Part shown: one piece after another, positions 11,570 through 13,866 of the stretch
Layout: every line of letters starts with the position of its first letter
Position numbering within the stretch: the stretch's first letter is position 1
IMG/VR virus record: IMGVR_UViG_3300021960_000653
Coordinates: 1 to 20,755 of that record
From: a virus
Length of the DNA: 20,755 nucleotides
Strand: one strand, 5' to 3'
Translations under genes and position numbers: made by a program
Notes under the pieces: model-generated
Databases searched by the model: none
Told to the model about the DNA's origin: nothing
Seen by the model: only the letters and a program-made list of their open reading frames with translations

Positions 11570-11705
11570 TTTTGAAGCAGAGATGGAATGTCTCGAGTGT
11601 GGGTATAAATATTGGGCTGATCTGGACGAGCGTCCTAAATGCCCCAGATGCTCTGGTGTCAAAGTCGTCTATGTAGAAGTTGACGAACCAGATCCAGAAG
11701 CGTAA
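11559..11705 (+). CDS. Tiny rubredoxin-like zinc-ribbon protein, 48 aa
   Basis: The frame reads MSHDFEAEMECLECGYKYW and later RPKCPRCSG, giving two CxxC pairs (C11/C14 and C28/C31) typical of a single zinc ribbon, then an acidic tail (EVDEPDPEA). Such mini zinc ribbons occur in phages and may bind nucleic acid or a protein partner. Start ATG 11559 overlaps the upstream gene. The 3' end carries the promoter of the structured RNA region. Confidence 0.6.
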   Translation: MSHDFEAEMECLECGYKYWADLDERPKCPRCSGVKVVYVEVDEPDPEA

Positions 11706-11708
11706 ATT
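11680..11708 (+). promoter_or_regulatory. Sigma-70-like promoter for the structured RNA region
   Basis: TTGACG (11680-11685, five of six consensus bases), a 17-base spacer and TAAATT (11703-11708, four of six) form one of the best promoters in the window. The expected start, about seven bases after the -10 box, is near 11715, exactly where the 9-bp stem of the RNA begins. Confidence 0.55.
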
Positions 11709-11714
11709 AAAAAA

Positions 11715-12058
11715 TGTGCCGGACGGGAATTAGCAGTTCCCTAGCTAACCGGACTGAAACAATGAGAAAAGACCCGTATGTCGCATTCCGGCACAGGTGT
11801 CATTGTAGCGAATCCGCTACATTTCTCAAGACTTCAGACCTATCCGTCCGTTAAAACTGTCGCATTGTGCAGTAGCCGAAAAAAGCAAGATTGCAGCCCA
11901 ACCTTTGAGGACGGGACAAACAGCGTTAGAGGTGATCCGCCTACGGGCAGGGACGGTTGAGCTACCGGATGGAGACACCCACCATCGAAAGCACTGCTGA
12001 TTACTGAGGTTGCATGGACGATAGTGTATCGGATGGACAGGGATCACCCTACGTCCTC
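11715..12058 (+). ncRNA. Putative structured non-coding RNA or long structured leader, about 344 nt
   Basis: This gene-free stretch (11706-12092 overall) holds nested complementary segments. Domain 1 is closed by TGTGCCGGA (11715-11723) with TCCGGCACA (11787-11795), 9 of 9 pairs; inside, GGGAA/TTCCC (11725-11729, 11737-11741) interlocks with TTAGC/GCTAA (11730-11734, 11744-11748), and CGGG (11724-11727) could instead pair with CCCG (11773-11776). A 7-bp hairpin with tetraloop follows (TGTAGCG/CGCTACA, 11804-11821). Domain 2 is closed by GAGGA/TCCTC (11907-11911, 12054-12058), then TAG/CTA and GGTGATCC/GGATCACC (11931-11938, 12041-12048), with small hairpins inside (GATGG/CCATC, CGATA/TATCG, CGGT/ACCG). 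TGTCGCATT occurs twice (11779, 11858). I recognise no known RNA family. It could be a free RNA or the leader of the helicase operon, since no terminator follows it. Confidence 0.5.
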
Positions 12059-12092
12059 TAAATGACAACTTTGCCTAAAATTTGGAGTGAGT

Positions 12093-12386
12093 ATGGAAAA
12101 ATCATTAAAGCAAGCATGGTGGGAATGGCATAACAAGAATCCGCAAGTGTGGGAACTGTTCCAGAAATTTACATTTCAAGTCATCGATGCCAAATTCAAA
12201 CATTACAGTGTTAATGCCATTTTTGAGCGTATACGATGGCACACAGACATTGAGACTCGCGGTGACTCATTCAAGATCAGTAATAATCATCGAGCCTACT
12301 ATGCGAGATACTTCCATCACTGCTACCCAGAGCATGATGGGTTTTTCAGGACATCGGAATTAAGGAGTCAGAGAAGTGCAGCTTAG
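12093..12386 (+). CDS. Conserved small phage protein of unknown function, 97 aa
   Basis: The product begins MEKSLKQAWWEWHNKNPQVW and has a helical, aromatic-rich body, then FKISNNHRAYYARYF and HDGFFRTSELRSQRS. The pattern 'N-N-x-x-x-Y-A-R-x-F...P-x-x-x-G-F/M-F' recurs in small early proteins of many phages; none I know has a proven role. GGAG at 12084-12087 is five bases from ATG 12093, which I prefer over the in-frame GTG 12087 that overlaps the ribosome site. It overlaps the helicase start by 11 bases, and follows the long structured leader. Confidence 0.6.
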   Translation: MEKSLKQAWWEWHNKNPQVWELFQKFTFQVIDAKFKHYSVNAIFERIRWHTDIETRGDSFKISNNHRAYYARYFHHCYPEHDGFFRTSELRSQRSAA

Positions 12387-13866
12387 ACCGCATCAAGAAA
12401 AGGCGGTTCAGATGCTAAGGGAATCGATAGCTAGAGGTAACAAAAGACCGCTTCTAGCCGCGCCTTGCTCATTTGGCAAGACAATCACAGCCGCTTACAT
12501 CCTGAACGAAGCCTACAAGAAAGGCAGACGGGGTATTTTTATCTGTGATCGAGTGAAGCTAGTACAGCAGACACTTGAATCATTTACAGACCATCAGATG
12601 CCATTCGGAGTCATGCAGGGATCACACGAACTGAATGATCCACGCGCACCTATTCAGATCGCCAGTGTCCAGACGCTAGCCAGACGCAAGTACACCAACT
12701 TTGATATTGCGATTGTAGACGAGTGTCATACACACTATGAGACAGTCACCAAGTTGATGCAGGAGCTAGATAACAATGTCTGGATCGGACTTTCAGCAAC
12801 ACCTTACTCAAGAGGTCTGGGAACACACTATGACGATCTCATTCTTCCAATTATGCCACGACAACTGCTGGAAGAAGGATATTTATGCCCCATTCACTAT
12901 TACGGTGGTAAACGTCCTGACTTATCTGGTGTTAGAAGAAGACGAATTAGAACCGGAGGATCAGATTACGATCCAGATTCACTAGGCAAGGTCTACGAAA
13001 ACGACAAGGCTCTGGTAGGCGACATCATCTTTAACTGGATGCAGCATGGCGAGAATAGCCAGACCATCGCATTCAGTCCATCGATCAAGCATTCAAAGTA
13101 CCTGGTTGAGAAGTTTAATCTGGCAGGTATTCCTGCTGTCCACATTGACGGTTACATGGATGATGAAGAACGCCAGATCATCTATGAGGCGCACGATAGA
13201 GGCGAGTACAAGATTCTTAGTTGCTCACGCTTGCTGAACACAGGCTATGACGCACCATCTGTACGCTGTTTGATCGACTGCTATCCCACTGACTCAAAAA
13301 TTGTGCTGTGCCAAAGATACGGCAGAGTGCAAAGAACCTATGAAGGCAAAGACTACGCAATCATCCTCGATCACGCCTCTAATGTTCAGAAGCATGGATT
13401 TGTAGAGGATATTGTTCCTGATTCGCTGGATGACGGTACTCAACGATTCAATGAGAAGAACCAGATCAAGAAGGAGAAGAAAGAACCCAAGGTCAAAGAA
13501 TGCCCACAATGCACACGCCAATTCTTAGGTATCAAGTGTGACTGTGGTTATGAGATACCAATGCAGGAACGGATCAAGACTGACGATCAGGTCTTGTCAC
13601 TGCTAAACAACAACAATTATTCACAAGAGAAGAAGGCTGAGTGGTTGGGCGAGTTATACTTGTATGCACACCAGAAAGGTAAATCAGAAGGTTGGGCAAA
13701 CCATAAGTTCAAGGCCAAATTTGGCACTTGGCCTGACCAGACGAAACCAGTGTTGGCTCTGGCGATATCAGAAGATGTTAGCAAATTTATCCAACATCAA
13801 AATATTAAATACGCGAAAGGAAAGTCCCGTTATGACAATCGAAAATATTTTGGCGAGGCTGTCTAA
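12376..13866 (+). CDS. SF2 (DEAD/DEAH-type) DNA helicase with C-terminal zinc cluster, 496 aa
   Basis: Predicted ATP-driven nucleic-acid translocase for phage replication or recombination. Motifs in order: Q-like LRPHQEKAV (3-11), Walker A APCSFGKT (29-36), DECH box (115-118), SATP (140-143), IAFSPSIKHS (231-240), TGYDAPSV (289-296) and motif VI QRYGRVQR (313-320). After the two RecA lobes come a lysine-rich linker and C376/C379 with C388/C390, likely a zinc cluster. The layout resembles UvrB/RecQ-neighbouring phage helicases of the ResIII type. Start GTG 12376 has GGAG at 12364-12367. The primase zinc-finger gene starts 35 bases inside its end. Confidence 0.85.
   Translation: MQLRPHQEKAVQMLRESIARGNKRPLLAAPCSFGKTITAAYILNEAYKKGRRGIFICDRVKLVQQTLESFTDHQMPFGVMQGSHELNDPRAPIQIASVQTLARRKYTNFDIAIVDECHTHYETVTKLMQELDNNVWIGLSATPYSRGLGTHYDDLILPIMPRQLLEEGYLCPIHYYGGKRPDLSGVRRRRIRTGGSDYDPDSLGKVYENDKALVGDIIFNWMQHGENSQTIAFSPSIKHSKYLVEKFNLAGIPAVHIDGYMDDEERQIIYEAHDRGEYKILSCSRLLNTGYDAPSVRCLIDCYPTDSKIVLCQRYGRVQRTYEGKDYAIILDHASNVQKHGFVEDIVPDSLDDGTQRFNEKNQIKKEKKEPKVKECPQCTRQFLGIKCDCGYEIPMQERIKTDDQVLSLLNNNNYSQEKKAEWLGELYLYAHQKGKSEGWANHKFKAKFGTWPDQTKPVLALAISEDVSKFIQHQNIKYAKGKSRYDNRKYFGEAV

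Follow-up and report, generated by a model that had tools for sequence, protein, structure and literature searches.

The window analysed here, a 20,755-base IMG/VR virus record (IMGVR_UViG_3300021960_000653, positions 1-20,755) whose terminase is nearest to those of Pelagibacter phages (~54% identity), raises the question of what is carried by the gap between an upstream open reading frame ending at 11705 and a downstream start codon at 12087 (GTG) or 12093 (ATG). An earlier note on this DNA had found no credible gene in the gap and proposed, for 11715-12058, a structured RNA transcribed from a promoter of its own. The absence of a gene was confirmed: no conserved protein frame runs through the region, the longest open frames vary between homologues, and a 1-nt insertion inside the invariant core of the relative L002 would shift any reading frame there. 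A protein-coding reading was rejected because no frame is shared across relatives. The fold energy of the RNA region was -115.3, against -99.9 +/- 5.4 for shuffled sequences (z -2.9, that is, 2.9 standard deviations below the shuffles), with 1 of 100 shuffles equally good.

Relatives were collected by a search with the neighbouring helicase as query, which gave 80 viral loci, and the RNA was sought in these by nhmmer. It was detected in about half of them, always near the helicase and in some on the opposite strand. A pattern derived from the near-invariant core matched at least 66 contigs from viruses and a single bacterial one, L147, which belongs to an Anaerolineales MAG; a further match, in L148, was discarded as due to chance. 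A blastn search of 50,697 phage records with the window, three type-A members and one B1 member (see below) returned nothing credible, with 27-36-nt matches of the chance type, and the covariance model found no RNA in four named phages whose terminase or helicase is related. A prophage search of 201 genomes of one phylum recovered just the MAG found before (L147).

Comparison with these relatives establishes, at the level of sequence, a structured RNA from 11715 to about 12075, consisting of a 5' hairpin domain, a pseudoknotted hairpin and a double-pseudoknot core. The features of the locus are as follows.

11680-11708, plus strand: sigma-70-like promoter of the RNA, TTGACG-17-TAAATT, predicted from sequence and conserved as a site in relatives
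11715-11795, plus strand: 5' domain, with closing stem 11715-11723/11787-11795 and inner hairpin 11725-11741
11804-11821, plus strand: hairpin TGTAGCG-AATC-CGCTACA, kept or substituted in close relatives
11856-11888, plus strand: pseudoknotted hairpin; pkA is 11856-11859/11870-11873, and pkB joins loop TTGT (11865-11868) to GCAA (11885-11888)
11892-11899, plus strand: helix Q, 5' strand, from covariation
11901-11926, plus strand: near-invariant core ACCTTTGAGGACGGGACAAACAGCGT, holding the 5' strands of C (11907-11913) and alpha (11921-11925)
11931-11938, plus strand: helix beta, 5' strand, paired in 46/46 rows, with four variable pairs at E <=0.05
11954-11986, plus strand: two inner hairpins, 11954-11967 and 11968-11986, from sequence
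11995-12004, plus strand: alpha 3' strand (11995-11999) and conserved GATNAC, from the alignment
12006-12014, plus strand: helix Q, 3' strand, with bulged A at 12007
12041-12048, plus strand: helix beta, 3' strand, from covariation
12052-12058, plus strand: helix C, 3' strand, paired in 46/46 rows
12059-12075, plus strand: conserved tail TAAATGACAACTTTGCC, leading to the ribosome-binding site
12087-12386, plus strand: first gene 3' of the RNA, 97-99 aa, function unknown, phrog_13625
12376-13866, plus strand: SF2 helicase (ResIII and Helicase_C; RadD/UvsW-like), the usual neighbour of the RNA

The strands of the core are ordered Q5-C5-alpha5-beta5-alpha3-Q3-beta3-C3. Helices Q and alpha are nested, as are C and beta, yet the two sets cross each other, and the core is therefore a double pseudoknot. 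In the window, beta is formed by GGTGATCC (11931-11938) and GGATCACC (12041-12048), and C by GAGGACG (11907-11913) and CGTCCTC (12052-12058); C occurs in the family as GAGGAC/GTCCTC, GAGGGC/GCCCTC, GAGAGC/GCTCTC, GATGGC/GCCATC and ATAGGC/GCCTAT. Alpha barely varies, with one compensatory change (CGGCG/TGCCG in L027). A GG-UGUURCGAG-CC hairpin occupies the inner-hairpin position in other subfamilies. A pairing partner was searched for the conserved tail and none was found. All stems named in the earlier note are in the sequence, including the 7-bp tetraloop hairpin with its AATC loop at 11804-11821. Its fold contained pairs that are present but missed the pseudoknots (pkB, and the crossing of Q/alpha with C/beta), and its 9-bp stem closes the 5' domain only, not the entire RNA. 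The extent of 11715-12058 likewise captured structured RNA but stopped short of the sequence conservation, which continues to about 12075.

Covariation was assessed in a segment-anchored alignment of 46 distinct rows and 94 columns, made with regular expressions around conserved motifs and with the one-base bulges of window-type helix Q removed by a fixed rule. As the null, alignments carrying equal numbers of changes per column were simulated on the tree; the procedure simplifies the principle of R-scape and was coded for this analysis. Among all pairs of the 94 columns, the 17 top-scoring pairs all fell within pkA, pkB, Q, C and beta; none of the 17 had an expected false count above 0.08, and the first pair outside these helices ranked eighteenth. 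Beta, C and alpha form standard pairs in all 46 rows. For helix Q, 7 of 10 pairs reached E <=0.05 in the anchored alignment, and 9 of 9 were altered on both sides in a MAFFT alignment. Every position of pkA and pkB is paired in 43 of 43 sequences; five of the eight pairs had E values of 0.00-0.08 and two pkB pairs showed no covariation. The pseudoknotted hairpin is missing from the three most distant relatives, L085, L092 and L088. The MAFFT alignment (22 sequences) was left untouched as a check on the handling of the anchored alignment for Q, alpha and the inner hairpin, which were paired in 91.9% of its cells, compared with 69.1 +/- 1.6% after shuffling and 24-51% when partners were slid. 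Covariation among the homologues was strong under both the tree-aware null and the slid and shuffled controls.

The 5' domain is closed in the window by nine base pairs between TGTGCCGGA (11715-11723) and TCCGGCACA (11787-11795), and in 51 of 55 distinct relatives by seven. Changes in this stem follow the tree, so that its covariation is not significant alone against the tree-aware null; one pair of the inner hairpin is significant. A middle segment, ACCGG (11748-11752), could also pair with the 5' strand, and pairing of the 5' strand with either the middle or the distal strand is possible in all subfamilies, covariation giving no preference. A switch between these alternative pairings was considered and set aside, as covariation does not separate the two. 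The hairpin at 11804-11821 is not universal; substitutes in relatives include CAACAC/GTGTTG and GTAACG/CGTTAC.

The predicted promoter, TTGACG-17-TAAATT, was located at 11680-11708. Promoter-like matches across the window alone were not above chance (30, against 33.5 expected), and the site is credible because it is conserved in relatives rather than because of the window match. Upstream sequences of 55 distinct relatives, many of them interrelated and so not 55 independent cases, gave by consensus scoring, with no end mapping, a best -35/-10 pair averaging 8.6 of 12, compared with 6.6 when shuffled; 69% scored at least 9, against 3.7% of shuffles. The spacing in relatives is mostly 17 bp, and the site ends 4-9 nt 5' of the first base of the RNA. 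It is strongly suggested that the RNA has its own promoter, from which sigma-70-type transcription would begin at about 11715. Both parts of the earlier proposal, structured RNA and dedicated promoter, are supported. The RNA reading is upheld because covariation was found among homologues, the region folds better than shuffled sequence and no protein frame is conserved, the three points on which the earlier note had let it stand or fall.

No match to the RNA was obtained in the window with Rfam 15 (4,227 families) at either curated (gathering) or lenient thresholds. Scans of 30 related loci left the RNA equally unmatched, returning chance-level matches and one unrelated tRNA in L018, which agrees with the earlier judgement that no known family applies. 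Riboswitch, intron, RNase P, tmRNA and ribozyme models did not reach the curated threshold, cmscan gave no match to the GOLLD or ROOL covariance models, and the HDV-like model gave none; readings as a known RNA were discarded after five Rfam scans of the family and its B-type relatives. In the open-access literature searched, no description of this RNA was found; absence from Rfam and from open literature does not prove that others have not seen it. On these grounds the RNA almost certainly belongs to a new family. The newness applies to the family, and its function could prove to be of a known kind. To our knowledge, RNA families with double pseudoknots and such covariation are rare, and known ones are often catalysts, RNP scaffolds or genetic switches.

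In relatives the usual order is NinB-NinG-(small genes)-RNA-(0-3 genes)-helicase in one direction. Almost without exception the RNA has a co-oriented gene next to it on its 3' side, the first genes being of several unrelated kinds, and a start codon lies 25-38 nt 3' of helix C, the last helix, in 40 of 54 representatives. The helicase of the window is akin to RadD and to T4 UvsW among solved structures; UvsW is known for unwinding R-loops. Within the helicase gene ARAGORN reported a 95-nt tRNA-Asp (window 13707-13801, minus strand), probably a false positive. The RNA heads other operons in L147 and L092, and a matching helicase is absent from L092, L088 and L146 (14-28 kb, possibly incomplete contigs); the link between RNA and helicase is frequent, perhaps not strict. 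In an ERF-oriented subgroup (L035, L037, L041, L043, L045 and others) the RNA has the helicase behind it and faces the ERF recombinase gene and YqaJ. Terminator-like hairpins lie there after the RNA and before ERF; they stand out clearly in L041/L035, L045 and L131 but are weaker elsewhere in the subgroup. They are apparently followed, still before ERF, by a promoter-like site (TTGCAY-17-CAYAAT type), a weak site type in related loci. A terminator after the RNA was looked for in relatives of the usual orientation and none was found, so that in this majority the RNA and the downstream gene probably share a transcript.

The window RNA is of type A, and its 5' domain is also found with other 3' halves. 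The B1 type (L058:3832-4400, L066:1771-2290, L053, L156-L162) keeps this domain and the promoter position but carries a different, structured 3' half of ~430 nt, which has compensatory hairpins of its own by eye and no Rfam match. Further 3' halves, unlike A and B1, lie behind the 5' domain at L009:3679-4100, L014:4202-4630 and L049:4346-4760. The type-A core model did not match the B1, L009/L014 or L049 halves; short motifs in common with type A do no more than suggest a distant relationship. Just 3' of the 5' domain, L066, L078 and L058 contain a variable number of GACTAGTC-like repeats in ~10-bp phase, which could form RNA hairpins or, alternatively, be DNA sites. In the Pseudomonas phages PS-1 (L169:2381-2995) and vB_PaeP_YA3 (L170:2500-3230), cro-like genes are separated from a related helicase by a long region that is for the most part without annotation. 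The PS-1 region has a better fold than shuffled sequence (z -2.6) and shows partial 84% similarity to that of vB_PaeP_YA3; an Rfam scan of the PS-1 gap found no match. A further structured RNA may occupy the corresponding place in these phages.

Our preferred reading, held at a little under even confidence as a whole, is that the new RNA family heads replication and recombination operons as a cis-acting leader with its own promoter. In the window it would form the 5' leader of an operon comprising the 97-aa gene and the helicase; folding during synthesis, it would set how RNA polymerase or the ribosome handles that operon, through antitermination or attenuation or through control at the nearby ribosome-binding site. 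Whereas the conserved structure and position are observed, the cis action is inferred. In its favour, most relatives probably have the RNA and the next gene on one transcript, with little space between the two. Short spacing and shared direction lend weak support, since phage genomes are compact and mostly co-directional. The terminator-like hairpins before ERF are as expected for an attenuator and were counted for a cis leader. Complications for this reading are a possible separate transcript in the ERF subgroup, a size and complexity above those of usual leaders, and a tail with no partner found.

A stand-alone, trans-acting noncoding RNA or RNP like GOLLD or ROOL, released by a terminator or by processing and with incidental downstream genes, is a real but lesser possibility. 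The RNA's own promoter, the changing neighbours and the retention of the 5' domain while the 3' half is exchanged all point this way, as do, in the ERF-oriented subgroup, the terminator and a seemingly distinct promoter ahead of ERF; the window-type majority lacks a terminator, and the start codon at 25-38 nt spacing argues against free RNA. The ERF subgroup can be read either way, fitting an attenuator or a free RNA alike, and the trans-acting alternative stays close. Rather doubtful, though worth stating, is a clan built on a shared promoter-proximal 5' domain with differing structured 3' halves, whose members might be catalytic, form RNA-only assemblies or modify polymerase as leaders of a new kind.

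A replication-origin RNA, whose transcript would prime DNA synthesis or form an R-loop acted on by the UvsW/RadD-like helicase, is improbable: the adjacency to this SF2 helicase is usual even where the RNA is inverted, and a primase lies nearby, but the three RNA contigs noted above (possibly fragments) lack such a helicase, and the fold is conserved far past the needs of a primer. Slightly less probable again is a ribozyme, self-cleaving or other; the crossed-helix strand order of the core resembles that of nested double-pseudoknot ribozymes, for example HDV-like ones, and the core has invariant unpaired residues, against which stands the lack of a match to Rfam ribozymes. That conserved DNA or a degenerate gene folds by chance and no functional RNA exists fits a single-sequence fold just moderately better than shuffles but is refuted by the tree-aware covariation and by the slid and shuffled controls, and we give it next to no weight.

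As the RNA mostly heads replication and recombination operons, it could reveal how infection is controlled in these phages, and direct tests are possible with the alignment and the consensus fold. Among known leaders, the HK022 put RNA is a cis antiterminator of ~70 nt with two simple hairpins. Put lies right behind an early promoter and the window RNA behind its own, starting, by consensus scoring, at or near the first transcribed base as a put-type leader does; put antiterminates, whereas the window RNA, far larger than the two simple hairpins of put, is a candidate antiterminator. Its position, ahead of a ribosome-binding site or, in the ERF-oriented subgroup, ahead of a terminator, is that of riboswitch and attenuator leaders; it matches no Rfam riboswitch and is a candidate leader by position. 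HDV-like ribozymes have crossed nested helices. The window RNA has these in common with them, a likeness of strand order, but is far larger and lacks an Rfam match. GOLLD and ROOL are large phage and prophage RNAs with complex folds and unknown function, ~660-800+ nt long and often near tRNA islands; ROOL has several pseudoknots, and in GOLLD one half is conserved and the other less so (PMC12286853). Although the window RNA is ~350 nt, heads replication and recombination operons and is matched by neither of their Rfam models, these two are nearest to it in kind, likewise being large, ornate phage RNAs without known function.
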